A DNA stretch of 64,000 nt, from the NCBI RefSeq assembly GCF_000015765.1, contig NC_008942.1, forward strand, positions 635,921 through 699,920, written 5' to 3'. Within the stretch, counting starts at the first letter, position 1. Each line of letters begins with the position of its first letter. This document shows, piece after piece, positions 26,641 through 49,490 of this stretch. Position numbers and translations under genes: made by a program. The notes under the pieces were generated by a model that was not told where the DNA came from, searched no databases, and saw only the letters and a list, made by a program, of their open reading frames with translations. Source of the stretch: Methanocorpusculum labreanum Z (GTDB taxonomy: Archaea > Halobacteriota > Methanomicrobia > Methanomicrobiales > Methanocorpusculaceae).

Positions 26641-28338
26641 TCACTCGAGAATTATGAGACTACCTAGATACACCGAGGCATTAGCCGGTTCAACATAGAT
26701 CAGCACGTACTGTTCTTCGTTTGAGGGCGGGATACCCCAGAGACAATACATCCATCCCCCGCCTGCCTGGGCAAGGGAAATGACCTCGCGGGCTATCGAC
26801 ATTCCAAGCGAATTTATCATGCCCAGCTGGTTAGTTCCCGCCATCTCCGGGTTCATCGCATCCGCAAGGTCAATTCCGTTTTCCGTGACGGCAAACGGAT
26901 ATAATCCTTCGATCTGCAGTTCACTGTTTGGATCCTTGATCATCTCAATCACCGATTCGATTCCTTCCGTCTTCGCAAGATACTGCATGTTTCTCACCTG
27001 ATACGTCAAATCCTCGTGTTCGGTCCAGGAGATGTACTGGTCCTGGGACAAGGGGTTTTCCTGTATATATATGCCAGATCCGATCAACCACGTATCATCC
27101 ACCGGCATAACATAGGAAAGTTTGAACTCCTGCGCAAAGTCATGATCCGGGTTTGGATACAGATAACAGACATACCCTCCTCCCTGTTTTGCTCTGGCGA
27201 TCACTCTATGCAGAACCTTGACTCCATTTGGGTCCTCCATGAAAAATCGGTCTTCGCCGATAAGGCCTGGCTGATAGGGTAGAGCCAACACTTCTCCATC
27301 CATGCTGTATGCAAAGATATACTGCTCCCCATTGACGAACTCACCTTCTTGATCATTGAACGCATTCAAGGCCTCTTCTTTGGTATGGGTCTGAGCATAG
27401 ACATACGCCTTCTCGACAAAACTTTTCAGATCTTCTATCGTCAGGTTTGTTTTTGTCTCGTTTGTGGTCTTCACTTCGGCATTGTCGGTAACGACCATCC
27501 TCCACTCCATGCCGTATCCTGGATACACCGTGTCCCAGACCGCGTTGATCTGGATCATGTCGACCCACGTGGAGTCATAGAACAGATACGAGACATTTCC
27601 AGACGAAGAATCAATAATTATCTTCGCTGCATTCTGTAAGGTGTCGCTCTGATACAAGGAATCAGTAAATATGTTTTTACCGATCTCCTGCGAGTCCTTA
27701 TCATAAATCACTATGCCGTCATTTTGAGCGACCCACAATGTGTATCCATATATGTGTCTGACGTATTCATTGAGTCCGGCAAAAAGCGCCCATGTATTGA
27801 TCCCGACCCGTAGAGTACCGTTAAACGTACCCTCTGCATCATACAACGGCGCAGTGATCACGATCCCGCTTTCATTATTGAGCAAACGCGAGTATCCTGA
27901 TATTATGCACTGTGATCCTGCGGCCTGGTAATCCTCTTTGGTATAATGGGTTGTTGCCTTGCTGACACCGATCTCCATGGTTTGACTGAGATCTTCAGTT
28001 GACGCAATGAGCGTGTTATTTGTATCAAACAGTCCTGCTTCGAACGAAAACGGGATGTCCCGTCTCAATTTCAGAAGTGCAAGCTCGACTTTCGGATCAT
28101 CGATTGGTACGCCGTCAAGGTCTCTCGCGGTTTTCCACACTAAACAGCACGCTTGCTCCATCTCTTTGGTGATCAAATGCGTGAGCGGATAAAGGGCCGC
28201 ATCCATCTCACTGATGTGTTCAGCGGAAACCGGCTGCAGTTCGGTTGTATTTTGTGCAGATATAACACACCCGGAGGTACAAATGCAAAATAGGAGTAAT
28301 GCAATTATACTGACACCCGAAATTACATGCCGTGTCAT
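26641..28338 (-). CDS. Multi-Cache-domain lipoprotein A
   Basis: A 565-residue lipoprotein. The start at 28338 gives a normal signal peptide ending ICTSGC with the lipid Cys at residue 24. The longer frame from 28437 would put 33 charged residues before it. GGTGA lies 5 nt before the ATG. After the lipobox come a helical segment and a first PAS-like sensor domain (to about 310), then a Cache_2-type domain (ALNAFNDQEGEFVNGEQYIF ... LSYVMPVDDTWLIGSGIY), then a third Cache-like unit (DPNSELQIEGLYPFAV ... QAGGGWMYCLW). There is no cytoplasmic or output domain. Four close paralogues lie upstream. It is followed by P1. Ligand unknown; it presumably binds small organic molecules outside the cell. 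Confidence 0.85.
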   Translation of the reverse strand: MTRHVISGVSIIALLLFCICTSGCVISAQNTTELQPVSAEHISEMDAALYPLTHLITKEMEQACCLVWKTARDLDGVPIDDPKVELALLKLRRDIPFSFEAGLFDTNNTLIASTEDLSQTMEIGVSKATTHYTKEDYQAAGSQCIISGYSRLLNNESGIVITAPLYDAEGTFNGTLRVGINTWALFAGLNEYVRHIYGYTLWVAQNDGIVIYDKDSQEIGKNIFTDSLYQSDTLQNAAKIIIDSSSGNVSYLFYDSTWVDMIQINAVWDTVYPGYGMEWRMVVTDNAEVKTTNETKTNLTIEDLKSFVEKAYVYAQTHTKEEALNAFNDQEGEFVNGEQYIFAYSMDGEVLALPYQPGLIGEDRFFMEDPNGVKVLHRVIARAKQGGGYVCYLYPNPDHDFAQEFKLSYVMPVDDTWLIGSGIYIQENPLSQDQYISWTEHEDLTYQVRNMQYLAKTEGIESVIEMIKDPNSELQIEGLYPFAVTENGIDLADAMNPEMAGTNQLGMINSLGMSIAREVISLAQAGGGWMYCLWGIPPSNEEQYVLIYVEPANASVYLGSLIILE

Positions 28339-28450
28339 TTTTTCACCAGGGTTTTGATGATGACCCCTCTCTTTGAAGAGTTTCCGTCTTTTTCCGTATG
28401 GAGCATCAGTCCTCGTTTTTCTAAAAGATTTGATCATTTTCCGCCTCCAC

Positions 28451-30145
28451 TCACTCCAGGATCATATAACTGGCAAAGTAGGTGTCGTTCCCTGCCGGCT
28501 CCACATAATCCAGAACAAACACCTCTTTTTGTTTTTCCGCGTCCCAGGCAAGCGTATACATCAGACCGCCTCCTTCCTGACCCAGGGATATTCCTTCCCT
28601 GACAAACGACATTCCGTAACTGTTGAGACTGCCGAGCTGATTGGTCCCGACAATCGCCGGGTCATTGGAAAAGGCAAGAATAGTACCGTTTCCAGAGATC
28701 GCAAACGGATACAGACCATCCCGCTGGAATGAACTGTTTGGATCCATCATCATGTCGGTAACGGCAGGAATACCCTCGACGGCTGCAAGATACTTCATGG
28801 TTCGAACCTGCTTGATAAGTTCGTTTCGCATCTTCCAGTCGACATTGGTCGTATGGGAAAACGGAGCATTATGTTCATACAGACCAGCACCAAGGTACCA
28901 TTCGTTGTCTACCGGGATCACATAGGAGAGCTTTAATTCGGTAGAGTAACCGACACTTGGATTTGGATACAGGTACAGAACATACCCTCCGCCCTGCTCT
29001 GCCCGTGCGATCACTCTCTGTACATATTTTACGCCGGCAGGATCCTCTGCAAACCAGGAATTTTCTCCGATAAGTGCCGGCTGATAGGGAAGCGACAACA
29101 CGGTCCCGTCCATACCTCCTGCAAAGATATACAGCTCTCCGTCAATAAAATCCCCCTTTGGATCATTGAATGCGGCGAGGGCTTTTGTTTTACCTTCGGT
29201 CAGGGCATAGATATAGGCCTTCATAACGAACACCTTCAGTTCGTCTGGAGTAACTATCGGCTCCATAAGTTCGTGGAGTGGCGGGACTGTGTCGACAAGT
29301 ACAATTTTCCATGTCTGTCCGTATCCTGGTTCAAGTGTGCTCCATACGGCATTTGTCTGGGAAATATTGTTCCATGCTGCTGAATAGAAAATGTAGGAGG
29401 TGTGTCCTGATTCGTTTGTGAGAATATCTTTAGTTGCTGCAGTGAATGATGGTGTGTACGCCGATGAAGGGTTCGTGAGGTCGGATCCGATTTTGGTCAT
29501 TTCTTCGTCATATATTATTTGTCCGTTTTCCTGAGCGGCCCAGACGGTATATCCGTATTTTGTCCTCAGTTCGTCCGCCGGTCCGGAGAAAAGAGACTCT
29601 ATGTTGAGAGATACCTGTATGGTCCCGTCATAATTGCCTTCTGCGTCGTAGACTGGTGCAATAACCTTTATTCCTCTGTCTCCATTTTGGAATGTGACAA
29701 AGTTGGATACTACACAGGCAGATCCGACAGCTTTTAGCTCTTCTTCGGTGTATGGCGTAGTTATGATCTCTGTTCCAACGAGTTGCTGACTATTCTGTTC
29801 TCCCGTAATGGCTGTAAGAATGTTGTCCTTGTCCACGCGGCCGACTTCGTAAGAGAGGGGGATCTCACTTTTGAGTTTCAGTAAAGCGAGATCTACCTCC
29901 GGGCCATCTTTGGGCATGCCGTCTAGTTCTCTTGCTGCATTCCACACCGCTGCAGTCGTCTCCTTCATCTGCTCATCGATGTTTAGGATATAGGTGTCCA
30001 GAGCTGCGTCCATCTCGGCATAGTACTCATCCGATACCGGCTGAAGCGTCGGTGTTTCCTGAACTGGCGTAATACAGCCGGATGCAGATATAAAAAAAAG
30101 AACTATCAGTATGGATAGGATCTTCGAAGACGCGTTTCGTATCAT
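28451..30145 (-). CDS. Multi-Cache-domain lipoprotein B
   Basis: A 564-residue paralogue of lipoprotein A with the lipobox ISASGC (Cys24). The N-terminus MIRNASSKILSILIVLFF is nearly the same as in lipoproteins C and D. Domain order is the same: N-terminal sensor region with ARELDGMPKDGPEVDLALLK, Cache_2-like domain with ALAAFNDPKGDFIDGELYIF and LSYVIPVDNEWYLGAGLY, and a C-terminal unit ending YFASYMILE. It has its own TATA box, 39 nt before the ATG, and AAGGAA as ribosome site. Upstream of the promoter is the relic of a sixth paralogue. It may read through into A, 112 nt downstream. Confidence 0.87.
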   Translation of the reverse strand: MIRNASSKILSILIVLFFISASGCITPVQETPTLQPVSDEYYAEMDAALDTYILNIDEQMKETTAAVWNAARELDGMPKDGPEVDLALLKLKSEIPLSYEVGRVDKDNILTAITGEQNSQQLVGTEIITTPYTEEELKAVGSACVVSNFVTFQNGDRGIKVIAPVYDAEGNYDGTIQVSLNIESLFSGPADELRTKYGYTVWAAQENGQIIYDEEMTKIGSDLTNPSSAYTPSFTAATKDILTNESGHTSYIFYSAAWNNISQTNAVWSTLEPGYGQTWKIVLVDTVPPLHELMEPIVTPDELKVFVMKAYIYALTEGKTKALAAFNDPKGDFIDGELYIFAGGMDGTVLSLPYQPALIGENSWFAEDPAGVKYVQRVIARAEQGGGYVLYLYPNPSVGYSTELKLSYVIPVDNEWYLGAGLYEHNAPFSHTTNVDWKMRNELIKQVRTMKYLAAVEGIPAVTDMMMDPNSSFQRDGLYPFAISGNGTILAFSNDPAIVGTNQLGSLNSYGMSFVREGISLGQEGGGLMYTLAWDAEKQKEVFVLDYVEPAGNDTYFASYMILE

Positions 30146-30183
30146 GATCGGATTCCTTAGTGAACAATAGGAAAGGGAAAGTT

Positions 30184-30196
30184 CTTATATCTTTTT
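30184..30196 (-). promoter_or_regulatory. TATA box of Cache lipoprotein gene B
   Basis: On the minus strand the sequence reads AAAAAGATATAAG, 39 nt before the ATG. The surrounding 50 bp (from the ATG to CCCACGATAAAAAG) is almost identical upstream of gene C (38420-38432) and similar before gene D (40244-40255). Confidence 0.7.
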
Positions 30197-30223
30197 ATCG
30201 TGGGAATTACTTTCAGTTTTTTC

Positions 30224-30271
30224 TCATTCGAGAATCATAAAACATGCAAAGCAGGCATCATTGCCCGCCGG
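30224..30271 (-). pseudogene. 3' relic of a sixth Cache lipoprotein gene
   Basis: These 48 bases on the minus strand encode PAGNDACFACFMILE and a stop, aligning with the last 15 residues of paralogues B-D (for example PAGNDTYFASYMILE). DNA identity with the same spot in gene D is clear up to the CCGG at 30268-30271 and then ends. In paralogues C and D the promoter is likewise preceded by the 3' end of another array member, so this is what is left of a gene lost when the island at 30.3-35.5 kb arrived or rearranged. Confidence 0.8.
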
Positions 30272-30574
30272 TGACCATCATGAGATGGAAAAAATCCATC
30301 GACCTACCACTCCAAGAATCATTTTTGCAGACATTTTGCGATGGAGAGGTACGCTCAACTATTCTCCTCCACCTTTTCCCTCCTCATCACCCGCCTCAAT
30401 ACCCCGGATTTTTCCGCGTCTCTACTCGAAAACCACAATTTCGATTGGAAAATACCCGTCTGCCAAGCAAAAACACCCCTTTGCCGACAGCAAAATACCA
30501 TACCCCAGACAAAAAATACGCCGTATGCTGGCGATTCTGCCGGCAAAACCTCAAAACTATATAAAGGAATACCC

Positions 30575-30833
<259 letters not shown>

Positions 30834-31067
30834 CCCTGTTAATTTATATATAATGACCGCATGGGGGAGAAAATACGTCGAATCTTGCCGATTTACAATT
30901 TCGACCACCGAAAATCATCATTAAAAAATGGTCAAAATTGATCGGCGGGAGGTGATTTTGGAATCGAAACACCTATTTGCGAATGGAAAAATGAACAAAA
31001 TTTCGTCCGTGAAGATCGTCCCAAAAACGACCCCGGAACTACCGATCCAATTCGGAAATGGTAAGGC
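30834..31067. other. Intergenic stretch, no gene seen
   Basis: Low-to-medium GC DNA between two repeats. An 87-residue frame from 30928 extends into the next repeat and has no ribosome site, so I do not call it. Confidence 0.4.
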
Positions 31068-31258
31068 CGGGTTTGGATGTATGAGAATTCCACCGCGAAT
31101 AATCGCGAATCTCCGCGAATCGCATTTTCCTTACGCTGTCTTCTTGTCCTCGTCGTTTCACTCCTCGGCCGCGTTCCTACGCTCCGCCTGATCGGCTCCG
31201 CGTGGCCGGAACGCCAGCGTGGAAAATGCTGGAAAACCCGCGTCGCGGGTTTTCTCCT
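31068..31258 (+). repeat. CGCGAAT-type dispersed repeat with terminal hairpin, copy 1
   Basis: The unit starts near TTTGGATGTATGAGAATTCC, continues with three CGCGAAT-like motifs (CCGCGAATAATCGCGAATC), a variable GC-rich middle (CGCTCCGCCTGATCGGCTCC), and ends with GCTGGAAAACCCGCGTC and its complement, forming a strong hairpin followed by TTTTCT. It is paired with an inverted copy at 31304-31482, giving a 415-bp palindrome. Related units are at 36420-36620 and 49147-49320. Confidence 0.8.
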
Positions 31259-31303
31259 GATAATTTATTGATCTATTTTGTAATTACAAGGATTTCAGAC
31301 TCT

Positions 31304-31482
31304 TTATAGAAAACCCGCGACGCGGGTTTTCCAGCATTTTTCGTTTCGCCGTCCCGACCACGCGGAGCCGATCAGGCGGAGCGTAGGGACGCGACCGAAG
31401 GTCAAGAGGGCGGAACAGGAAAAATGCGATTCGCGGAGATTCGCGATTATTCGCGGTGGAATATCTCATGTGTCCACACCCG
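31304..31482 (-). repeat. CGCGAAT-type dispersed repeat with terminal hairpin, copy 2 (inverted)
   Basis: Inverted partner of the unit at 31068-31258, separated by a 45-nt AT-rich loop. The CGCGAAT block, the CGGAGCCGATCAGGCGGAGCG block and the terminal hairpin AAAACCCGCGACGCGGGTTTT are preserved, while the middle has diverged in parts. Confidence 0.8.
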
Positions 31483-31591
31483 ACCAACTCCTTCCCGAAT
31501 CTTCACGTTTTTCTCCCCCCTCCTAATACGATTTTTTTGCATCGTAAAATCCTCTTCTCACTCACTGACCACCACGGATCTGCAAAAATAG

Positions 31592-31631
31592 GAGGCATTA
31601 TCGCACCGCGCGGTTCGGGGTATAAATACTC
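31592..31631 (+). promoter_or_regulatory. TATA-containing 40-bp block, copy 2
   Basis: Matches the block at 6873-6912 at 37 of 40 positions, including CACCGCGCGGT and the TATA (GGGGTATAAATACTC). It lies inside the accessory island, 325 nt before the first gene of the eight-gene operon. The sequences that follow the two copies are unrelated. Confidence 0.45.
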
Positions 31632-31857
31632 ACAATCCAACAAAAGATATATTCCGGGGACCTCTCCCGAAAACCAAAAACACCAAAGCAAGCGTGATAC
31701 CAAGAAAAAAATCAACAAACCGCCGGCCATAATCCGACCGGCCAAAAGGACTCTCTTTCCCCCAACTTCGACGTTACCTCAGCCCCCCTTATCTTCTCTA
31801 AATTATGATGCAATTTTTGAAATAATTTCTCGTTTTTCAAAAAAACATACACTAATA

Positions 31858-31886
31858 TGCATAGAAAAATAATTATTTTGTATGCA
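31858..31886. promoter_or_regulatory. 29-bp palindrome, possible operator of the island operon
   Basis: TGCATA arms flank an A/T core (AGAAAAATAATTATTTTG), with 11 of 14 arm positions pairing. It is 70 nt before the start of a short RHH-like gene, the first of the operon. Such an arrangement is typical of self-regulating small DNA-binding proteins, but the binding is inference. Confidence 0.45.
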
Positions 31887-31956
31887 ACTGAGGGGGAAAT
31901 GACCCCGGTGAAACTGCTGGAAAAAACCTCTGCAAAAGAGGGGAAGTGATAAAAAA

Positions 31957-32106
31957 TTGAAAAACCATTTCAACCTCACGATCAGCGACCCTGACAAAAA
32001 GACGTTCGCTGCATTCACGAAAAAGTATCCAAACCCGAGGACTTCGAAAGTCATCCTCGCTCTCATCAGAGAACACATGAAAGGAGAACCACAGAGAAAT
32101 GCCTGA
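31957..32106 (+). CDS. Small putative DNA-binding protein (RHH-like), first gene of island operon
   Basis: A 49-residue frame starting at TTG 31957 with GAGGGGAAG 9-13 nt upstream. It reads LKNHFNLTISDPDKKTFAAF and TSKVILALIREHMKG, which has the strand followed by two helices of ribbon-helix-helix proteins. The stop lies in ATGCCTGA and overlaps the next ATG by 8 nt. The ribosome site is inside a small hairpin (CCTCT/AGAGG). A palindrome upstream could be its operator. TTG start and short length make the call moderate. Confidence 0.5.
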   Translation: MKNHFNLTISDPDKKTFAAFTKKYPNPRTSKVILALIREHMKGEPQRNA

Positions 32107-32464
32107 CTTTAGAGTTTACGTCCCAGAATCAAAATCCGGGGTCATGTATCAGTTCAAAGAACAGTTCGGCAAAGATGGATCACCCATGATCGTAAACTTC
32201 ATGGAAGAATCCCTGAATGGAAATGTGGCCGCTCCCGAAAATCAAGAAGAAAAAACCGCCCGCATCTACGACCTCTACTTCGGCGACATAACCAACGAAC
32301 GTGAATTCGTCCGACTTCTCGGCGGAAGAAAAAGCGCGGAAGCCGCCGTCATCAACCGGTGTGCAGAACTTAGCAGAAAATACCCGGACATCTCAGGTGA
32401 TGTCATAGAAAAGTTCAAAGAAAACCATCCAAACTTCGAAAAAATCACTGGAGTAATCAAATGA
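32099..32464 (+). CDS. Island operon protein of 121 residues, unknown
   Basis: Starts MPDFRVYVPESKSGVMYQF and is acidic overall with helical segments towards the C-terminus (EKFKENHPNFEKI). The ATG overlaps the preceding small gene and the stop overlaps the next by ATGA. No motif that I recognise, and no signal peptide or membrane segment. Compact overlaps like these are common in archaeal viruses and plasmids. Confidence 0.65.
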   Translation: MPDFRVYVPESKSGVMYQFKEQFGKDGSPMIVNFMEESLNGNVAAPENQEEKTARIYDLYFGDITNEREFVRLLGGRKSAEAAVINRCAELSRKYPDISGDVIEKFKENHPNFEKITGVIK

Positions 32465-32577
32465 CCAAAAAACATGCCTGTCCGATGACGGTCTGGAAAC
32501 TTAATCAGGGAACAGGCAATAGACAATTTGCACTGCAAAGAGAAAAAGCAACCGCCCCCACGACAGGTGGACCATGA
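32461..32577 (+). CDS. Island operon mini-protein of 38 residues
   Basis: A short frame starting MTKKHACPMTVWKLNQGT. It is held between two ATGA overlaps (32461 and 32574), and this placement is the main support for translation. No known family. It could also be a non-functional spacer frame, but the exact coupling at both ends argues against that. Confidence 0.45.
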   Translation: MTKKHACPMTVWKLNQGTGNRQFALQREKATAPTTGGP

Positions 32578-32828
32578 CCTTTGAGCCCAAAAACCAGATA
32601 TGGAGCAGAGCCGATTACGACGCATCGCCCTATCTCGACACGATCATCACGTCCCTCAATCCCAAAAGGAACAATCGTGCAGCCCGGCTCATCAATGTAA
32701 TGCACAAACTCCTTGTCGGTCTTATCACCGATCATCTTAGGGATCATGGCATTCCCTTTGCCGCCATCAGCGGCGAAACATTTACTCTCACCATCAGATT
32801 TTTCAGCGAAGTGCCGGAGGAACCATGA
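32574..32828 (+). CDS. Island operon protein of 84 residues, unknown
   Basis: Starts MTFEPKNQIWSRADYD. The middle is helical (RAARLINVMHKLLVGLITDH) and the end is strand-like (ETFTLTIRFFSEVPEEP). Both ends overlap neighbours by ATGA. No cysteine motif, no signal peptide. Function unknown; its position directly before an HNH endonuclease suggests a nucleic-acid related role. Confidence 0.6.
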   Translation: MTFEPKNQIWSRADYDASPYLDTIITSLNPKRNNRAARLINVMHKLLVGLITDHLRDHGIPFAAISGETFTLTIRFFSEVPEEP

Positions 32829-33352
32829 CCCCTGACAGGAAACCCTGCCTGGGTCTCCGGCTCGCCGACCGGGTGATCCTCTCAAAGATCCTTACAGGCA
32901 CGTGGAAACTCGATGCGGAAAACGGCGAGATCATCTCGCGGAACACCGGGAAGCCTCTGAGATTTGTCCATAAGAACAACGGGTATCTCTCGATGACAAC
33001 CCAGTACAAAGGGCATAACGTCGCCATCACCAAGCATCGGGCCGTCTTCATCGCCGGAACCTGTAAAACTATGGACGATCTACCGGTCGACCTGAACCTT
33101 CACATCGACCATATCAACGGGAACATCGAAGACTGCCGGCTCGCAAACCTTCGGCTCATCCCCTTCTGGGACAACAACCACCCGCAGTCGGGACAAAAAA
33201 AGCGGATCTTTACCGATGAACAAGTCGCTGAGATCCGACGACGGTATGCGGAAGGCGAACCACCGCGGGTTCTTGCGCCGGAGTTTGGTGTGGTCAAGAG
33301 CACGATCCACCGGATCGTTTCCCGGCGGACCTATGCGGAGGTGGGCCTGTGA
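32825..33352 (+). CDS. HNH endonuclease with C-terminal helix-turn-helix
   Basis: A 175-residue protein. The HNH motif is HIDHINGNIEDCRLANLR near residues 93-110, preceded by a strand-rich domain (GYLSMTTQYKGHNVAITKHR). The C-terminus has a resolvase/AP2-type helix-turn-helix, FTDEQVAEIRRRYAEG then APEFGVVKSTIHRIVSRRTY. This layout is seen in free-standing HNH homing-type nucleases of phages and group I intron-like settings. It overlaps its neighbours by 4 nt on both sides. It is the only clear enzyme in the island and marks it as selfish or viral in origin. Confidence 0.85.
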   Translation: MTPDRKPCLGLRLADRVILSKILTGTWKLDAENGEIISRNTGKPLRFVHKNNGYLSMTTQYKGHNVAITKHRAVFIAGTCKTMDDLPVDLNLHIDHINGNIEDCRLANLRLIPFWDNNHPQSGQKKRIFTDEQVAEIRRRYAEGEPPRVLAPEFGVVKSTIHRIVSRRTYAEVGL

Positions 33353-33609
33353 GCGAACCCGGAACGGAATACCTGCGAAGGATCAAGTTCTCCTGCCCGG
33401 TCTGCCTGAACTCGGTCACGGAAAAGATCTGGGTCGAGGACAAACGCGATCTGAAACAGGCGGTTCTAAACTGCCCGGTCTGCGGTTCGCCGACGATGCG
33501 GATTGATTCTCCGGATGACGACATCCAGTTCTTCGCCTATCTGGATATGCGAAGGACAATTATTGAACGGATCAATGAACAGCAGGAGGATACCTATGAC
33601 TATCTTTAA
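33349..33609 (+). CDS. Zinc-ribbon protein of 86 residues
   Basis: Starts at GTG (33349) within the HNH stop codon. Two CPVC knuckles, CPVCLNSV at 16-23 and CPVCGSP near 42, form a clear zinc ribbon. The tail is acidic and helical (RRTIIERINEQQEDTYDYL). It may bind nucleic acid or protein. The next gene starts within its last codons. Confidence 0.65.
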   Translation: MSEPGTEYLRRIKFSCPVCLNSVTEKIWVEDKRDLKQAVLNCPVCGSPTMRIDSPDDDIQFFAYLDMRRTIIERINEQQEDTYDYL

Positions 33610-34096
33610 TGCTGACGAGATCCGGGCAGCTCTGGAGACGGCGTTTCCCGTGCCGATGGACGAATACGAAGATGCGTTCTACTGTCAGCTGATGGCCGGT
33701 TCCTTAAACGATCTGGCGAAGGTCTACAAACGCCGGTTTAACGAGACCGTTGATGAGATCAAGGCCGGAGGTCTTCTTTCTGAGGATTTTGTTCTGGTGC
33801 AGGAAGAATCCCGGAGAAAGGAGGTCGATATCAAGGCGCTGAGAAACGGTTTGCCGGATCTTTTCCAGGAGGTGGTGCATGTCACGACATCGGACGCGGC
33901 GAAACTTCTGTCGAACCGGTTCATCTATGAAGCGGTGAAAAAGAAGATCGGGGACCGGATCACGGATTATGACGCGGTAAATGTGGATGATCTGGAGGCG
34001 AGGCTGCCTGAGCCGGAACTTTCGGAATACATGAAGATAATAACGATCCCGAAAGGGTATGTGGTGAAAAGGGTGAGCCAGAGGAGGAGGAACTGA
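33596..34096 (+). CDS. Island operon protein of 166 residues, unknown
   Basis: The ATG at 33596 has an ideal ribosome site CAGGAGGATA and overlaps the previous gene by 14 nt. A longer frame from 33503 is not needed. Mostly helical and acidic (NADEIRAALETAFPVPMDEY), with a basic end (KGYVVKRVSQRRRN). No recognised domain. Codon use is as GC-rich as in host genes, unlike the first genes of the operon. Confidence 0.6.
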   Translation: MTIFNADEIRAALETAFPVPMDEYEDAFYCQLMAGSLNDLAKVYKRRFNETVDEIKAGGLLSEDFVLVQEESRRKEVDIKALRNGLPDLFQEVVHVTTSDAAKLLSNRFIYEAVKKKIGDRITDYDAVNVDDLEARLPEPELSEYMKIITIPKGYVVKRVSQRRRN

Positions 34097-34099
34097 CCG

Positions 34100-34285
34100 A
34101 TGAGATACTGGTACAGTTATCCGGAGCTTTTAGATAAGGAGAAGTTGAAGGCCCTGCTCGCAGAGCATAAGAGGGTCTCGGCGGTCGCTCTGCAGATTGG
34201 ATGCAGCCGGCATTCGGTGGAGACGGCGATGATGCGGCACGGGATCGAGTATCCGTCCGGGTGTATGGCGGATAAGATTCTCTAA
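34100..34285 (+). CDS. Small helix-turn-helix protein of 61 residues
   Basis: Starts MRYWYSYPELLDKEKLKALL. The stretch RVSAVALQIGCSRHSVETAMMRHGI has the spacing of a helix-turn-helix of the Hin/resolvase type. It lies 3 nt after the preceding gene and is last in the operon. A terminator-like hairpin follows at 34307-34330. It could regulate the island or assist the HNH enzyme. Confidence 0.6.
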   Translation: MRYWYSYPELLDKEKLKALLAEHKRVSAVALQIGCSRHSVETAMMRHGIEYPSGCMADKIL

Positions 34286-34306
34286 CCATCAGAGTTGTGA
34301 GGGAAT

Positions 34307-34330
34307 CTCTCGTTTTTGTCTGAACGAGAG
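34307..34330 (+). terminator. Hairpin after the island operon
   Basis: CTCTCGTT at 34307 pairs perfectly with AACGAGAG at 34323 over an 8-nt loop, and a T-rich tract follows (CTATTTTTTATTCTTTT). It marks the end of the eight-gene unit. Confidence 0.55.
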
Positions 34331-34439
34331 CAAATTTCCTCTATTTTTTATTCTTTTCCGTCCAATAATCACATAGCATGTGTGAAACGGCACGTGAATT
34401 CCGATCAACGATCTCCTCCCAATAGGGCAGAAAAAATCA

Positions 34440-34650
34440 CGTGTGTTCTGCATATGTACGGCAAGTCTATCGACAAGCGCCTTGTCTTAGCCATCTTTGA
34501 TGACCTCGATGGATCGCAAATCAAAGATTTGCTTGGCTAAGGCCACCCCTTATGGGGTTGCCCGCTCGCAAATCAAAGATTTGCTCCTCGCTTCGACCGC
34601 CGTGAGCGGTCTCAGCGATCGCAAGCCTATCGACTTGCTCATCACCTCCA
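34440..34650. repeat. Repeat cluster with two GCAAATC palindromes
   Basis: The gap between the operon and the next gene holds two 17-bp palindromes (34516-34532 and 34568-34584). It also contains AAGGCCACCCCTTATGGGGT, related to repeats near 23.39 and 35.44 kb, and near-copies of CTATCGAC. In-frame translation through it gives repetitive peptides, so I start the following gene after it. Confidence 0.65.
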
Positions 34651-34652
34651 CC

Positions 34653-35144
34653 ATGACAGCAGATTTCATTCAGACAGCAATCTCGAAGTCCGCAAAGCGG
34701 ATCTTCACCGCAGAGTTTACGAACGCCGCCGCGTATGATGCGATCGTCGCAGAAATTACCGGCGTGGATAACCCCCTCGGCCTTGCCGAAGTCGAACTCG
34801 GGAAGCAGACCTACAAGACCTATGTCGGCTACTTCGACCCGAACACTTCCGAGATGAACGGCAAGGTTCAGGTCACGGCATACACCCGTGCTGAGTATGC
34901 CGCGGCAATTACCGCCCTTACCGGCAGTGCGGATCTCAAGACCGCATTCGGGAACGGCGGTACGGCAGAGACCTCCGAGATCGGTACCGAAGCGACCTGG
35001 AACGTCCGCATTTCCGCGAAGCTTGGGACCGATACTTTCCAGATCAGTCTCAACCGCGATTCGATGACCGTCTCCGGCTATGCCGATGACGCCACCCTTG
35101 CAGCGGTCGATGCCTGGGCAGACACCAAGCCGGCCCTGAACTAA
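34653..35144 (+). CDS. Island protein of 163 residues paired with a tiny membrane peptide
   Basis: From the ATG at 34653 the protein starts MTADFIQTAISKSAKRIF and is rich in Ala, Thr and Gly, with beta-strand-like segments (GKVQVTAYTRAEYAAAI, TWNVRISAKLGTDTF). No signal peptide. The upstream CACCTCC is the wrong strand for a ribosome site, so the start is uncertain. The open frame extends back to 34497 through repeat DNA. It is followed 12 nt later by a 34-residue membrane peptide with a strong ribosome site. A virion or surface structural protein is possible; I do not recognise it. Confidence 0.6.
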   Translation: MTADFIQTAISKSAKRIFTAEFTNAAAYDAIVAEITGVDNPLGLAEVELGKQTYKTYVGYFDPNTSEMNGKVQVTAYTRAEYAAAITALTGSADLKTAFGNGGTAETSEIGTEATWNVRISAKLGTDTFQISLNRDSMTVSGYADDATLAAVDAWADTKPALN

Positions 35145-35156
35145 CGGGAGGCGGAG

Positions 35157-35261
35157 ATGCAGATCTCCAGACGCCTCCGGAAGCTCATCATGCTCTTCCT
35201 CGGGTTTCTCATCATGCTTTTTGGGAAACTCGTCGAGGGGTTTGTAGAATCCGGAAAATAA
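35157..35261 (+). CDS. 34-residue single-pass membrane peptide
   Basis: Starts MQISRRLRKL, then a hydrophobic stretch LIMLFLGFLIMLFGKLV, then a short tail ending VESGK. A strong ribosome site GGGAGG lies 6 nt before the ATG, only 12 nt after the stop of the 163-residue protein. Basic N-terminus plus one helix suggests an N-in membrane peptide such as a holin-, toxin- or anchor-like molecule. Function is unknown. A terminator hairpin follows. Confidence 0.6.
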   Translation: MQISRRLRKLIMLFLGFLIMLFGKLVEGFVESGK

Positions 35262-35290
35262 CATAAAAACGGGGTTGCGAGCTTTGTCGC

Positions 35291-35317
35291 TGGGCAGAGG
35301 TGAACACACCTCTCCCG
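35291..35317 (+). terminator. Hairpin terminator after the two-gene unit
   Basis: AGAGGTG (35296) pairs with CACCTCT (35307), extended by GGG/CCC across one bulged base, followed by TTTTTCTATTTTTTC. Confidence 0.65.
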
Positions 35318-35379
35318 GCGATTTTTCTATTTTTTCAATACGGATTCCATACAGGAAATCAACGATATCCCCACTGCAG

Positions 35380-35593
35380 ACTGATTCGCAGGGCAAAGCC
35401 TTGCTCGGTTGAGGGATCTAAGGCCCCCTCCTCCGTTGAGGCCGCCCCTAACGGGAGAACGTCAGATGATCCCCTTACCTCTGATTTATCTCATCACGCT
35501 CCAAAGATACTATGACTGCCTGCTATAATCGGCCGGTGAAATACTGATTTAATAGCAGGACAGATATGACAATGCAGATAACAGGAAGGAACG
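35380..35593. other. Intergenic edge of the accessory island
   Basis: Contains degenerate repeat text (AGGCCGCCCCTAACGGG near 35443) related to copies at 23.39 and 34.54 kb. It also contains the inverted pair CTGCTATAAT / ATTTAATAGCAG around 35521-35560, which may be a hairpin. No gene is seen. The host-like cupin gene starts after it. Confidence 0.4.
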
Positions 35594-35959
35594 ATGGCAG
35601 ATTTTGAACTGGAAATGACAAACAAACCCGTCAAAAAGCGGGAAGAATTATTGGGAAAAGTCCTCGACCTCAAAGAACTGGTCTCCTATCAGGAAGGGGC
35701 GGTTTCGAGCCGGATGATCGTCAGTAATAAATCAGGGAGCATCACCGTCTTTTCGTTCGATGAAGATGAAGGACTTTCCGAACACACCGCTCCATATGAC
35801 GCCGTGGTCACGATCATCGACGGCGAATGCGAGGTATGGATCGCCGGCAATACCCTCCAGATGAAAACGGGCGATACTATCATATTCCCGGCAAATGCCC
35901 CCCACGCGCTCAGTGCCATAACAAAATTCAAAATGACTCTGACCATGATCCGGGGGTAA
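35594..35959 (+). CDS. Single-domain cupin protein
   Basis: A 121-residue cupin of the small quercetinase-like type. The two motifs are SEHTAPYDAVVTIIDGECEVWI and GDTIIFPANAPHALSA. The first motif has one His and the second one His, with fewer metal ligands than usual, so metal binding is uncertain. GGAAGG upstream is the ribosome site. It sits 5 nt before a small Cys-containing gene, and the pair looks like a host operon rather than island cargo. Such small cupins in methanogens often go with redox or metal proteins, but the substrate is unknown. Confidence 0.82.
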   Translation: MADFELEMTNKPVKKREELLGKVLDLKELVSYQEGAVSSRMIVSNKSGSITVFSFDEDEGLSEHTAPYDAVVTIIDGECEVWIAGNTLQMKTGDTIIFPANAPHALSAITKFKMTLTMIRG

Positions 35960-35964
35960 CTGAG

Positions 35965-36243
35965 ATGAGCGGGAATGATACAGACGGATATTACTGCACG
36001 ATTTGCGGAGGTATCCCGCCGGACAGGATCCACATCCGGCATATACTCGTAGACGACAAAGCAACCGGGATCGACAAACTGGACTGGATCATTGCCGAGG
36101 TGAAAAAATTACATCTTACCGATGACACCGCCATCACCGAAGAACTGCTCAAACGGACAAAGGTGCTCAACTACGTTCCCACAAAAAAGACAGAGGCATA
36201 TGAGAAAGCTCTGCTGAAGGAATATAAAGATACAACGCAGTAA
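35965..36243 (+). CDS. Small protein with CxxC motif (methanogen 'NAC-like' family)
   Basis: A 92-residue protein. DGYYCTICGGIPPDRIHIRH has a C-x2-C that may bind zinc or take part in redox. The C-terminus LLKRTKVLNYVPTKKTEAYE is the most conserved-looking block. I recall similar proteins in Methanomicrobiales, sometimes labelled NAC-family transcription factor on weak grounds. The start at 35965 follows the cupin stop by 5 nt. Longer frames overlap the cupin gene. Function unknown. Confidence 0.65.
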   Translation: MSGNDTDGYYCTICGGIPPDRIHIRHILVDDKATGIDKLDWIIAEVKKLHLTDDTAITEELLKRTKVLNYVPTKKTEAYEKALLKEYKDTTQ

Positions 36244-36253
36244 CGCCTTGGTC

Positions 36254-36291
36254 GTTCCTTCCCCGGATCCTGGAAAAACCCGGGAAGGAAC
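36254..36291 (+). terminator. Strong hairpin after the cupin operon
   Basis: GTTCCTTCCCCGG pairs with CCGGGAAGGAAC around a loop that holds GGATCC. No immediate T-run follows, although TTTTTTTGTTT occurs 50 nt on. Confidence 0.5.
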
Positions 36292-36391
36292 GGCAGTTCG
36301 ACAGGAGGGAAAATGTTGCCGGTTTTTCTCTTCGCTAACTTCTCTTTTTTTGTTTAATCGAATGATAACGAAACAACAGAGAAACCCGCAC

Positions 36392-36408
36392 GCAAATCTT
36401 TGATTTGC
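36392..36408. repeat. 17-bp palindrome GCAAATC-N3-GATTTGC, copy 5
   Basis: Lies at one end of a CGCGAAT-type repeat region. The sequence context differs from copies 1-4. Confidence 0.85.
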
Positions 36409-36419
36409 ACGCATTAGCC

Positions 36420-36620
36420 TGAGAGAGCACCCGAACACATGGAAAATGCGATTCAAACGAGGCTCGAAGACCCGAGTCGGAGAGCAACGCGAAGCTTTGC
36501 GAGTGGGAGGAATCGCGGAGGCGTGAGAGCCAAAGGCTTGCGTGCCGCCTCAAATGGGCAAAGCCAATTTGGGCTTATTCGCGGTTACATAAATTCAGGT
36601 TTCCACACCTAGCCGTATCC
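36420..36620 (-). repeat. CGCGAAT-type dispersed repeat, diverged copy
   Basis: On the minus strand it begins GGTGTGGAAACCTGAAT, then TAACCGCGAATAAGC, then a long GC-rich variable middle with direct repeats (CAAAGC, CGAGTC), then GAATCGCATTTTCCATGTG. The order of parts matches the units at 31 kb and 49 kb, but the terminal hairpin is replaced by the GCAAATC palindrome. No gene is present between 36244 and 36683. Confidence 0.6.
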
Positions 36621-36683
36621 TTCCCAAATTGGATTGAGAGCACACCGCGTAACTCCTATTTAAAAAAATATGACACCCCCCCT

Positions 36684-38381
36684 TCAATCCTCCAGGATCA
36701 TGTAACTGGCAAAGTAGGTATCATTCCCCACTGGTTCGACGTAATCCAGAACATACACTTCCCTTTGATAATTCTGATCCCAAGTGAGCATATACATCAG
36801 ACCTCCGCCGGACATACCGAGAGATATCCCCTCCCGGACAAACGACATGCCGTATGAGTTGATTAAACCTAACTGATTTGTTCCAACAAGCGATTTGTCG
36901 CTGGAAAAAGCAAGAATTGTGCCGTTTCCCGTGACCGCAAATGGATAGAGCCCTTCTCGTTGGAATCCACTTTCCGGATCCATCATCATTTCTGTTACAG
37001 AAGAGATACCATCGACTGCTGCAAGATAATGCATGGTCCTTACCTGGCTGATCAATTCATTTCGTTTCTGCCAGTCGATACTGACCGTATGGGAAAACGA
37101 GGCATTATGTTCATACATTCCTGCTCCGAGGAACCACTCGTTGTTAATGGGCAGTACATAGGACAGTTTTAATTCTGTTATGTAATTCTGGTTTGGATTT
37201 GGATACAGATAAAATACATATCCGCCTCCCTGTTGTGCCCGGGCGATCTGTCTCTGTATATATTTCACTCCGGTCGAATCTTCTGCTGACCAGGAATCCT
37301 TCCCGACAAGGGCCGGCTGATACGGGTGTGACAATATCGTGCCGTTCATATCTCCGGCGAAGATATACATCTCGCCGTCAATGAACTCCCCGTTTGGATC
37401 ATCGAATGCTGCAAGTGCCTTCTCTTCTCCCTCTTTATTGGCATAAACGAAGGCATTCACTACAAAGGTTTTTATCTCTTCCGGGGTGGTTGTGCTCTCT
37501 TCAATTTCACCAGGTTTTGGGAAATTGTCGACAAGCACGACCCGCCATGTTTGTCCATATCCGGGTTCTACTGTATTCCATATGGCGTTCCTCTGAGAAG
37601 TATTGTTCAATTCGGCTGAATAGTAAATGTAGGATACATCTCCCGACTCGTTTTTGAGGATCTCTGCGGCTGCTTTGGTGAATGAAGGTGTATTCCCTAG
37701 TGACGGGTTCGTGAGATCGACCCCGATTTGCCGCGTATCCTCATCATAGATCACGCTCCCGTCGTCCTGAGTGACCCAAACGGTGTACCCGTATTCCGTT
37801 CTCAGTCTCTCCGCCGGTCCGGAGAAGAGATACCCTGAATCCATAATTACCTGCAGGGTCCCGTCAAAATTACCCTCTGCGTCATAGATCGGTGCGCTGA
37901 CCTTTATTCCGCTTTCACCGTTTTGGAATGCGGTGTATTTGGATATGATACACTGCGATCCGGCGGCTTTGAACTCTTCTTCGGCATACTGGTTAGTTAT
38001 GATCTCCACGCCGATCAGCGAAAGTTTATCTGATTCCCCGGTAATCATCGTCAGGACGTTATCTTTATCGATGCGTTCGACATCATAGGAAAGCGGGATC
38101 TCACTTTTGAGTTTCATTATGGTCAGATATACTGAGGGGTCATCTGCCGGCACGCCGTCGAGTTCCCGTGCGGCATTCCAGACCGATGCGGTTATCTGCT
38201 TCATCTGATCATCGATCGTCTGAATATACGGGTCGAGGACATCGTCCATCTCGGCATAATATTCCTCGGAAACCGGCTGGAGTGTCGGGCCCTCCTGAAC
38301 GGGAGTAATACAGCCGGATGCGGAGATGAAAAGAAGAACTATCAGTATAAAGAGGATCTTTGAAAAAGCATGTCGTATCAT
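36684..38381 (-). CDS. Multi-Cache-domain lipoprotein C
   Basis: A 565-residue paralogue of B and D, with lipobox ISASGC (Cys24). The Cache_2-type domain has ALAAFDDPNGEFIDGEMYIF and LSYVLPINNEWFLGAGMY. The last unit has DPESGFQREGLYPFAV and ends YFASYMILED, one residue longer than B. It lies just past the island and its promoter region is the twin of that of B. The 130 nt between it and D hold only this promoter. It presumably has a different ligand from its paralogues, since the ligand-binding strands differ most. Confidence 0.87.
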   Translation of the reverse strand: MIRHAFSKILFILIVLLFISASGCITPVQEGPTLQPVSEEYYAEMDDVLDPYIQTIDDQMKQITASVWNAARELDGVPADDPSVYLTIMKLKSEIPLSYDVERIDKDNVLTMITGESDKLSLIGVEIITNQYAEEEFKAAGSQCIISKYTAFQNGESGIKVSAPIYDAEGNFDGTLQVIMDSGYLFSGPAERLRTEYGYTVWVTQDDGSVIYDEDTRQIGVDLTNPSLGNTPSFTKAAAEILKNESGDVSYIYYSAELNNTSQRNAIWNTVEPGYGQTWRVVLVDNFPKPGEIEESTTTPEEIKTFVVNAFVYANKEGEEKALAAFDDPNGEFIDGEMYIFAGDMNGTILSHPYQPALVGKDSWSAEDSTGVKYIQRQIARAQQGGGYVFYLYPNPNQNYITELKLSYVLPINNEWFLGAGMYEHNASFSHTVSIDWQKRNELISQVRTMHYLAAVDGISSVTEMMMDPESGFQREGLYPFAVTGNGTILAFSSDKSLVGTNQLGLINSYGMSFVREGISLGMSGGGLMYMLTWDQNYQREVYVLDYVEPVGNDTYFASYMILED

Positions 38382-38419
38382 GATCGGATTCCTTAGTGAA
38401 CAATAGTAAAGGGAAAGTT

Positions 38420-38432
38420 CTTATATCTTTTT
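38420..38432 (-). promoter_or_regulatory. TATA box of Cache lipoprotein gene C
   Basis: Same AAAAAGATATAAG and the same 39-nt distance to the ATG as in gene B; the flanking 60 bp are nearly identical. Confidence 0.7.
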
Positions 38433-38510
38433 ATCGTGGGACTATCTCTCTGATTTTTCTTGGAAATGTTTCGAGAGATAAAAAAATTAGGTTATTTTCT
38501 CTTGTATTCC

Positions 38511-40205
38511 TCATTCAAGAATCATAAAACTTGCAAAGTAGGCATCGTCATCTGCCGGAACCACATATACCAGTATAAAAATCTCTTTGTTTAGTGTGGA
38601 ATCCCAGAGAAGAGTATACATCAGTCCTCCTCCCTCTTTCCCAAGTGATATGCCTTCCCGTATGAGTGATATGTCTAATGAATTTACTCTCCCAAGCTGA
38701 TTCGTACCTACAATGTCCGGATTTCTTGCAAATGCCAGTACGGTCCCGTTTTCGGTGATCGCCATCGGGTATAATCCTTCGACCTGGATATCACTGTTTG
38801 GATCCATCATCATGTCAGTAACTGCAGAGACCCCCTCGACTTCTGCAAGATACTGCATGGTTCGAACCTGCTTGATAAGTTCGTTTCGCTTCTGCCAGTC
38901 AACACTGGTCGAGTGGGCAAGCAAGGTGTTGTGTTCATATATTCCCGCACCGATGAACCACTCGTTATCTATCGGCATCACATAGGCCAATTTTAATTCG
39001 GTTGCGAAATCCTGTGTCGGATTTGGATAGAGGTACATGACATATCCGCCGCCCTGTTCTGCGCGTGCGATCTGTCTTTGAATGTATTTAACCCCAGTTG
39101 TATCTTCTGCCATCCATTGATCCGTTCCGATAAGAGCCGGCTGATATGGAAGTGAAAGCATTGTCCCATTCAGAGTTTCGGCGAATATGTACAGTTCTCC
39201 ATCGATAAACTCTCCTTTTGGATCATTGAACGCCGCCAAGGCCTCGGTTTTTTCATGTGTCCGTGCATAGACATAGGCATTGGTGACGAAGGCTTTCAGT
39301 TCGTCCTGGGTAACCGTGAGTTCGCTCGTCATACGCGGCATCGGGACGTTGTCGATAAGCACGACCCGCCAGTTCTGTCCGTATCCTGGGTCGAGAGTAC
39401 TCCATACGGCATTCGTCTGATTGATATCATGCCAGTCTAGCGTATAGAATATGTAGGATGTCTGTCCTGATTCGTTTGCGAGGATATCTGCGATCGCCGA
39501 GTTCAATGAAGGGGTATATGCCGATGTGGGTTTCGTGAGGTTTACTCCTATCTCCTGCGTGTCCTCGTCATAAATCACGATTCCGTCGTCCTGAACGGCC
39601 CAGACGGTATACCCGTATTTCGTTCTCAGTTCCTCTGCAGGTCCGGAGAAGAGATACCCTACATCCAGAGCTACCTGAAGGGTACCGTCAAAATTCCCGT
39701 TTGCATCGTAGACCGGTGCGATGACCATAACCCCCTGCTCGCCGTTATCAAAGAGGGTGAACGGGGATATCGTACAATTCTCACCTGCAGCTTTGAGTTC
39801 TTCTTCGGTGTATTGGTTTTCTCCGATATATGTCCCGACAGACCACTCGATATACTGTTCATTGGTAACGGCCCGTAAGACGTTGTCTTTGTCGAGGCGT
39901 CCGGAATCAAAGGACAGCGGTATCTCGCTTTTCAGTTTCAGTAATGCCAGATCGACCGCAGGATCGTCCATCGGCACGCCGTCGAGTTCCCGTGCCGTCT
40001 CCCAAACCAATGCAGTAATTTCCTGCATCTGCTCATCGACGGTCTGCATGTAAGGATACAGAACCGTATCCATCTTGGCATAATATTCATCTGAGACTGG
40101 TTGAAGTTCCGGGGTTTCCTGTTTCTCTTGAATGCAGCCGGATGCGGATATGAAAAGAAGAACGACTAGGATAAAGAGGATCTTCGAAAAAGCATGTCGT
40201 AGCAT
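38511..40205 (-). CDS. Multi-Cache-domain lipoprotein D
   Basis: A 564-residue paralogue with lipobox ISASGC (Cys24). Conserved marks are ARELDGVPMDDPAVDLALLK, ALAAFNDPKGEFIDGELYIF, LAYVMPIDNEWFIGAGIY, and the final YFASFMILE. It has its own TATA box at 40244-40255. The spacing to gene P2 upstream (180 nt) contains that promoter, so D is a separate unit. Like the others it has no membrane helix besides the signal and no intracellular part. Confidence 0.87.
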   Translation of the reverse strand: MLRHAFSKILFILVVLLFISASGCIQEKQETPELQPVSDEYYAKMDTVLYPYMQTVDEQMQEITALVWETARELDGVPMDDPAVDLALLKLKSEIPLSFDSGRLDKDNVLRAVTNEQYIEWSVGTYIGENQYTEEELKAAGENCTISPFTLFDNGEQGVMVIAPVYDANGNFDGTLQVALDVGYLFSGPAEELRTKYGYTVWAVQDDGIVIYDEDTQEIGVNLTKPTSAYTPSLNSAIADILANESGQTSYIFYTLDWHDINQTNAVWSTLDPGYGQNWRVVLIDNVPMPRMTSELTVTQDELKAFVTNAYVYARTHEKTEALAAFNDPKGEFIDGELYIFAETLNGTMLSLPYQPALIGTDQWMAEDTTGVKYIQRQIARAEQGGGYVMYLYPNPTQDFATELKLAYVMPIDNEWFIGAGIYEHNTLLAHSTSVDWQKRNELIKQVRTMQYLAEVEGVSAVTDMMMDPNSDIQVEGLYPMAITENGTVLAFARNPDIVGTNQLGRVNSLDISLIREGISLGKEGGGLMYTLLWDSTLNKEIFILVYVVPADDDAYFASFMILE

Positions 40206-40243
40206 AATCAGACTCCTTAGTGAACAATTGTAGGGGGAAAGTT

Positions 40244-40255
40244 CTTATAGCTTTT
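40244..40255 (-). promoter_or_regulatory. TATA-like box of Cache lipoprotein gene D
   Basis: AAAAGCTATAAG at the same 39-nt distance from the ATG as in genes B and C. One C replaces A inside the box, so strength may differ. Confidence 0.6.
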
Positions 40256-40385
40256 GTTGTGGGGTATTATTTGGGAGGATCAGCGGAGCTGAGGTAATAA
40301 AAAATGTGGAAATTTTTGCGTCTAAGGGCACTCATACTATTATCGAAGAGAGTGTAATCACTTACTTTAGAAAAAAAGGATTGAT

Positions 40386-40817
40386 TTATGTGAATTTTAT
40401 GGTAGTCAGCTTTAGGAGCTGCGTTTTTCCGTCTGAAAATACACCGCGAACGGCAATATCCCTTACACCTGTTACGCCGGCGCATGCCTCCGTAAAGTAG
40501 ATTTCTCCGGTCCCTGAATTTGGTGCTGGTTTTAGGCTGACTGATTGCGGCAGCGAAACTCCTTCGATCTCAAGAGAGACCATGGTAAGTTCATCAACTC
40601 TGCGTCCTTCATAGATCGTAACGATCACATCATTGCCGACCACAAACACATGCAGAAGTACGTCCGGGTCTTCAAGTGATTTATCGATGACGTATCCGGT
40701 TCCAAGAAGTGCGACACTGGCACAGGCCGCTACGATTATGATTGAAACAATAGCTAAAACGCTTGCCATCACCAGGCGTTTCTCTTTTTGACTCTGTTTC
40801 TTATATTTTAGCGCCAT
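40386..40817 (-). CDS. Membrane-anchored pilin-like partner of Cache lipoproteins (P2)
   Basis: A 143-residue paralogue of P1 with the basic start KYKKQSQKEKR, one membrane helix (about residues 17-40), and a beta-rich outward domain (NDVIVTIYEGRRVDELTMVSL ... IAVRGVFSDGKTQLLKL). It is 3 nt downstream of lipoprotein E. P1 and P2 therefore flank the whole array at its two ends, each tied to the nearest lipoprotein. This repeated pairing is the best evidence that the two proteins work together. Confidence 0.75.
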   Translation of the reverse strand: MALKYKKQSQKEKRLVMASVLAIVSIIIVAACASVALLGTGYVIDKSLEDPDVLLHVFVVGNDVIVTIYEGRRVDELTMVSLEIEGVSLPQSVSLKPAPNSGTGEIYFTEACAGVTGVRDIAVRGVFSDGKTQLLKLTTIKFT

Positions 40818-40820
40818 TGT

Positions 40821-48863: not shown

Positions 48864-49102
48864 TTTGGTTTATTGGGTTCTTTTTGATGGACGAATTCTC
48901 GCAAGGCATTTGCCATGCTCAGCTAAGTTCGTCGACTTCGTCTCCAACCCGCTCATCACACGAAATTCACGAAAAACACACGAAAACACGAAAAATAAAA
49001 GAATCAGTTGAGTGGGGTACAAATCGTATCCTCCCCCGCCCCCCAACACCAAAAATCACTAAACTCAACGAAATTCACGAAGAAGGGGGATCGGGGAGGA
49101 TG
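48864..49102 (+). repeat. CACGAAA-type repeat, left copy flanking the EEP gene
   Basis: About 240 nt. It starts near TTTGGTTTATTGGGTTC, then CTCGCAAGGCATTTGCCATG, then CTAAGTTCGTCGACTTCG, then the CACGAAA tract shared with 23.1 kb, then a C-rich/G-rich pair. The copy at 50264-50506 is the same in inverted orientation with roughly 85 per cent identity by eye. Peptides read from it (HEKHTKTRK) are not genes. Confidence 0.85.
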
Positions 49103-49146
49103 GATGGGGAGATCAGTAAGCTCTCAGAAGAAAGTAGTTGAGATAA

Positions 49147-49320
49147 GTGTGGATGCTTGAGAATATTTAACCGCGAATCTCCGCGAATTCCCGCGAATCG
49201 CATTTTTTCTTGCACCGTCGTGCTCTGCTCCGGCGTATCGCCTGCGCAGAAATCGCACGCCGTCTGGAAAAATGCTGTCGAAAAAACCGGCGTGCCGGTT
49301 TTTCTATCATTTCATTATAT
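49147..49320 (+). repeat. CGCGAAT-type dispersed repeat with terminal hairpin, copy near EEP gene
   Basis: Begins GTGTGGATGCTTGAGAATA, then CCGCGAATCTCCGCGAATTC, then CGCATTTTTTC, a variable GC-rich middle, GGAAAAATGCTG, and the hairpin AAAACCGGCGTGCCGGTTTT followed by TCT. Same modules in the same order as at 31068-31258, but the hairpin stem differs in sequence while keeping its pairing. Confidence 0.8.
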
Positions 49321-49490
49321 CTCATAATTGTTACGGGAAATATGTGGGACTTCAAATCAGATGTCAGGGTTTGGATGGAATATTCTAATTACCGTTGATT
49401 TAATCTGGGAAAAGCAGATGTTATTTGAGACCTAATTTTAATCCAAATTATTATTTTGATAAGAATAGACATAATCAGATTGGTAATATA

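Follow-up and report, generated by a model that had tools for sequence, protein, structure and literature searches.

A multi-copy and probably mobile element of Methanocorpusculum that joins an HNH endonuclease operon to an order-wide conserved protein

The locus described here raises the question of what a compact run of eight short frames, packed between a palindrome and a hairpin in the genome of Methanocorpusculum labreanum Z, represents. The window, i.e. the whole stretch of DNA that was analysed, is 64,000 nucleotides long (bases 635921-699920 of the 1,804,962-bp genome), and coordinates without a locus name refer to it. A first-pass annotation took the frames for the early-region-like operon of a virus, plasmid or other selfish element; the finding is real, and it is broader than that first reading. 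The operon and its regulatory DNA consist of the following features.

31858-31886, no strand: 29-bp imperfect palindrome, putative o1 operator, identical in four copies at four sites
31957-32106, plus strand: o1, small RHH-like regulator, 49 aa, TTG start; its family profile matches 9 loci
32099-32464, plus strand: o2, unknown, 121 aa, present in 10 genomes of Methanocorpusculum
32461-32577, plus strand: o3, 38 aa, fused with o4 in other copies
32574-32828, plus strand: o4, 84 aa, dispensable; the copy at 170 kb in G016 has most of it deleted
32825-33352, plus strand: o5, 175 aa, homing-type endonuclease of the HNH class (Pfam HNH_3, 5e-6) that carries an HTH at its C terminus
33349-33609, plus strand: o6, zinc ribbon (weak matches), 86 aa, GTG start, in 7 genomes of Methanocorpusculum
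33596-34096, plus strand: o7, 166 aa, with a possible likeness in predicted fold to phage exonuclease/Gp157-associated domains
34100-34285, plus strand: o8, small HTH-like protein, 61 aa, the HTH coming from weak matches only
about 34299-34357, plus strand: hairpin with T-rich tail 3' of o8, probable terminator (-21.7 kcal/mol)

The eight frames (31957-34285) form one operon downstream of the palindrome, in which six of the seven junctions overlap (by 8, 4, 4, 4, 4 and 14 nt) and the last is a 3-nt gap; apart from small corrections, the arrangement first described holds. The first-pass annotation had also proposed looking for the same gene order elsewhere, and profile searches indeed find homologues of the operon, in the same order and on the same strand, in about 30 element copies across Methanocorpusculum. 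This conservation of order and strand means that the eight frames are genes, beyond chance. Some parts are looser than others: in several copies one ORF stands in place of o3 and o4, the closest copy has lost most of o4 to a deletion, and o8 is kept downstream of o7 in every context with an intact o7. The palindrome has a perfect 14-bp core (31866-31879), TGCATA/TATGCA arms and a one-base bulge, and other element subfamilies carry an AT-rich TGCA...TGCA stretch at its position; it is probably the operator of o1. The RHH-like nature first proposed for o1 survives in pattern and position, by which the assignment is made, and not in Pfam, where o1 gave no significant match. Upstream of the operon, (AG)n or (CT)n runs occur in several subfamilies (30712-30746 in the window, L022:7849-7877 and L030:11962-11986).

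Two of the products can be placed further. First, o5 is, as judged from its sequence, an I-HmuI-type HNH homing endonuclease with its active site kept. The best PDB match of its family profile is I-HmuI (1u3e_M, E 5.7e-11), and D95, H96, N108 and N117, which are invariant in 17 diverse copies, align with the DH...N...N of 1u3e, the catalytic D-H, N and N of I-HmuI. Its C-terminal HTH matches, i.e. the DNA-binding domain, lie at residues 126-168, and together with Pfam HNH_3 and 1u3e they bear out the earlier call of an HNH endonuclease with a helix-turn-helix. PADLOC matches on the element are limited to "homing endonuclease" (HEase) models; no known defence or metabolic system, homologues in which would have counted against the first reading, was recognised. 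Second, o7 may resemble phage exonuclease/Gp157-associated domains, and this in predicted fold only. Its model is good and its best structural neighbours are phage proteins, among them one annotated as Siphovirus Gp157, several DUF2800 proteins, a RecB-like exonuclease and a portion of a PD-(D/E)XK protein; Foldseek probability reaches 1.00, but with E 0.004 or worse and a TM of about 0.39. None of the 13 family members examined has a Pfam match, and neither PF05565 nor other families match at the sequence level. No relatives of o7 were found in phage or plasmid collections, and the weak matches outside Methanocorpusculum, mostly within RecQ-type helicases or other large frames, were judged spurious. 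Unlike Gp157, which its predicted fold may resemble, o7 stands alone, is confined to one genus and lacks the PF05565 match.

The unit does not end at 34330, as the first-pass annotation had it. In blastn comparisons, homology to copies at other sites starts at 31533 (in three copies) and ends in most at about 35238-35240, so that the conserved unit reaches about 35240, and its last 590 bp encode a conserved protein (CP) and a short membrane peptide. No other part is as widespread or as well conserved as this distal pair, which the first reading overlooked. The outer features are as follows.

31533-31956, plus strand: non-coding leader, left end of the shared homology, 98-99% identical to two non-allelic G016 copies and 86% to a remnant
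34653-35144, plus strand: CP, 163-aa order-wide hallmark protein, function unknown
35157-35261, plus strand: 34-aa peptide with one probable membrane helix, read from the sequence; co-conserved with CP (family F8, 15 loci)

CP is separated from o8 by about 0.1-5 kb of DNA whose contents vary by copy, e.g. GxxExxY-type proteins or 90-bp tandem repeats. Host-associated species have other regulators in place of some of the upstream part, with HNH-o7-o8 and then CP retained. Model searches confirm the earlier statement that the unit holds no integrase, known capsid or replication gene, and find no transposase, casposase or polymerase either. The ends are not clean, no clear terminal inverted repeats or target duplication were found at them, and the window contains no tRNA gene as a target.

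The element, of which the operon represents one copy, is restricted to Methanocorpusculum and multi-copy. A single genome can hold its HNH and o7 genes, always in the same order, as many as six or seven times, and o7 is found in 19 of the 25 Methanocorpusculum genomes, likewise in up to six or seven copies each. Whether copies are fixed in place was addressed by comparing the entire genome of a relative, G016, with the window and with the other M. labreanum copies; two features of the window bear on this comparison.

30421-30989, no strand: R1, 570-bp dispersed repeat upstream of the element subfamily
30989-36453, no strand: stretch missing at the matching G016 site (5465 bp versus 454 bp)

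The G016 site is thus empty, with a junction that is not clean, and in G012, G003 and G020 the contigs with the homologous Cache-gene cluster carry no CP or HNH copy. Among the other M. labreanum copies, L022 also has an empty counterpart site in G016, L021 matches a remnant there, and L023 occupies a site that is filled in both. The check on variable presence proposed at first therefore came out positive, and the operon is not fixed at one site in all relatives. The nearest relative of the window element lies instead at an unrelated G016 site (169.7-173.1 kb). Against this copy, dS is 0-0.08 for o1, o3, o7, o8 and CP, the median for 27 core genes being 0.37 (range 0.11-1.03), and the non-coding leader is 98% identical; a near-identical copy at an unrelated site implies transfer or movement after the lineages split. 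Higher values in the comparison with G016 for HNH (0.34), the zinc ribbon (0.20) and o2 (0.15, with its best match in another copy) indicate that the element is mosaic. We are thus highly confident that the element is mobile, integrated and recently exchanged. R1 precedes each of the five subfamily members by about 0.3-0.9 kb and stands alone at three G016 sites, the empty window site included. The window R1 is 92% identical to the R1 of the 170-kb copy versus 85% to its positional partner, which fits co-conversion, and R1 may be a target or left flank of conversion. Among 97 candidate spacers from G016 and other loci, few of them from real arrays, none matched the element beyond repeat noise.

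At silent sites, CP has diverged far less than o7 or HNH of the same element pairs. Between the window and G016c it is 0.11 for CP, 0.81 for o7 and 0.55 for HNH; against G016d, 0.12 for CP and 2.83 for o7; and against G003a, 0.21, 1.38 and 1.31 for CP, o7 and HNH, respectively. The boundaries of the shared DNA are abrupt, falling at the CP start codon and just within the 3' end of the peptide gene. The simplest account is that CP is kept uniform by gene conversion that reaches only as far as the shared sequence. Localised conversion close to the site of the cut is a known effect of free-standing homing nucleases (PMC2988022), and conversion by a homing nuclease may be the source of the low CP divergence. 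The uniformity of CP does not cleanly follow its linkage to HNH, since a truly CP-only locus in G003 is diverged and a CP locus in G012 that has no HNH in its vicinity is not.

Our leading reading, which we hold tentatively and at a little short of even confidence, is that of an integrated element spread by nuclease-triggered recombination, a homing-type mechanism. The RHH-type o1 would probably silence the early operon through the palindrome; once the operon is expressed, the I-HmuI-like nuclease would nick or cut a recipient site, and o7, perhaps with the zinc-ribbon and HTH proteins, would probably assist recombinational repair from the element-bearing copy. Such repair would copy the element, or its CP-membrane-peptide end, into another site or genome. 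We infer that o1 represses, that o5 cuts, that o7 has the part given to it here, and that conversion triggered by the nuclease moves the element in place of an unseen recombinase; what is observed is the footprint, i.e. low CP divergence together with recent exchange. Homing requires homology on two sides, on the other hand, and only R1 and CP offer it, which counts against homing alone. If the HNH operon does drive the spread of CP, this would be a multi-gene homing element in archaea, and integrase-free movement would be directly testable in the cultured type strain M. labreanum Z.

A comparison with known systems brings out what is particular to this element. Like the free-standing T4 MobA/MobE and the intron-encoded I-HmuI, o5 combines an HNH nuclease, its active-site residues kept, with a C-terminal DNA-binding domain, and the element is present or absent at one site among relatives, as free-standing homing elements are. 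Unlike those enzymes, its nuclease belongs to a conserved operon of several genes, copies of which are scattered as a unit through one genome, and the element adds a regulator, o7, o8 and the distal CP module. It shares small early-type genes, variable presence, multiple copies and low annotation with archaeal proviruses, casposons and integrated plasmids (PMC6563490, PMC4158269), from which it differs in having no integrase, transposase, casposase or polymerase and no clear inverted repeats or target duplication. We found no earlier description of it in the literature searched, a scope that leaves out most subscription journals.

The alternatives depend largely on CP, which reaches far beyond the genus: it is present in 51 of the 55 Methanomicrobiales genomes sampled and in none of 240 others in the phylum, with up to ten copies per genome, and is under strong purifying selection (dN/dS mostly 0.03-0.18). 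Its copies lie at unrelated sites, some are broken or partial, and often no HNH gene is present. In other genera, CP copies within one genome have about 0.5-1.1 kb of DNA in common and small membrane or secreted proteins often follow CP. There, a divergent Cdc6/Orc1 homologue lies near CP in 14 of 66 loci, always on the opposite strand (Pfam Cdc6_lid in the one tested), and a protein of about 1000 aa in 9 of the 66; Pfam finds no match in the latter, which we take, from motifs judged by eye, to be a probable primase-helicase. These neighbours suggest that CP belongs to mobile elements across Methanomicrobiales. The CP model is confident (pLDDT 91.5) and without a convincing structural relative; the best PDB matches are triphosphate-tunnel/CYTH-like, but with a TM of about 0.3, and this identity was not accepted. 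Of the exclusive signature clusters of Methanomicrobiales, 26 of 62 are hypothetical proteins (Anderson 2009, PMC2686161). CP has the order-specific distribution sought for those clusters; a mobile context is not mentioned in the text consulted. That almost every genome of a major methanogen order carries this gene pair, in as many as ten dispersed copies, and that the pair has no family annotation and does not occur in the rest of the phylum, marks a clear gap in knowledge. Two further features of CP loci may be recorded: a divergent protein of about 84 aa (STRELVxETxRDVKWICRTL) lies about 0.4 kb upstream of CP at L092:8154-8417 and some 20 other loci outside Methanocorpusculum, and 90-bp tandem repeats with related units, which could be iterons or a partition site, lie immediately upstream of CP at L089:4368-4679 (3.5 copies) and L040:11564-12046 (5.4 copies).

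It is possible, though we would not lean towards it, that CP and the membrane peptide are the hallmark of undescribed order-wide mobile elements or viruses without an integrase, whose early modules are interchangeable (HNH-o7 in Methanocorpusculum; elsewhere Cdc6/Orc1 homologues and large proteins of replication type) and whose CP is kept uniform in Methanocorpusculum through homing-driven conversion. We regard as rather unlikely a reading in which the element is a reduced provirus or a satellite belonging to some undescribed lineage of Methanomicrobiales viruses or plasmids. CP and the peptide would then be its hallmark module, perhaps one for particles or membranes, the eight genes would be its early region, and a larger relative would provide integration and replication in trans. 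The Cdc6/Orc1 and large neighbours of CP, the small membrane or secreted proteins downstream of it and the phage-type o5 and o7 all speak for such an origin, but no relatives of CP were found in viral contigs, phages or plasmids at the sensitivity used, fold comparison with viral proteins gave no match, and no capsid, packaging ATPase or integrase was recognised near it. The original proposal is thus upheld for a mobile or selfish element with an operon of early-region appearance, by variable presence and dispersed copies, and not for a virus or plasmid.

We consider it improbable that CP and the peptide are an ordinary host family of Methanomicrobiales, upstream of which the HNH operon inserts as a parasite. 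The near-universal occurrence of CP in the order, its purifying selection and its frequent lack of HNH would fit, but the empty G016 site lacks CP too, so CP moved together with the operon there, and scattered sites and broken copies are likewise not what a host family would lead one to expect. Far less likely still is a defence or toxin-antitoxin island with the nuclease as effector and the membrane peptide as toxin: a nuclease, small regulators and a small membrane peptide occur together, and a link between Gp157 and phage immunity is reported for prophages of Streptococcus thermophilus (PMC6356513), but PADLOC gave homing-endonuclease models only and it is a homing enzyme that matches best in the PDB. 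An ordinary, vertically inherited chromosomal operon, for which HNH in all 12 genus genomes at least 90% complete and one copy at the same site in G000 and G016 could be cited, is contradicted by the empty G016 site and by dS far below core genes, and unrelated locations, remnants and broken copies also speak against it.

Finally, the surroundings of the integrated element hold several repeats and genes. It lies inside an array of about five tandem paralogous genes for Cache-domain lipoprotein-like proteins of about 560 aa (26641-42482, minus strand). A dispersed palindromic MITE-like repeat at 31045-31500, with nested inverted arms of 91 and 64 bp, has dozens of partial matches in G016 and caused Rfam miRNA matches that are spurious. 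Short dispersed REP-like palindromes at 34514-34585 and 36390-36409 (GCAAATCAAAGATTTGC, GGGGACCTTTAGGTCCC and a GGTTGGACGCTGAAAGCGGACG unit) also flank many G016 element copies. Downstream of the element, the DNA that G016 lacks also holds a cupin gene and one unknown gene (35594-36243); neither is convincingly matched by G016 DNA, and both are possible extra cargo. At 49001-50000, G+C drops to 0.36 in a window of about 0.5, marking a second possible foreign stretch.
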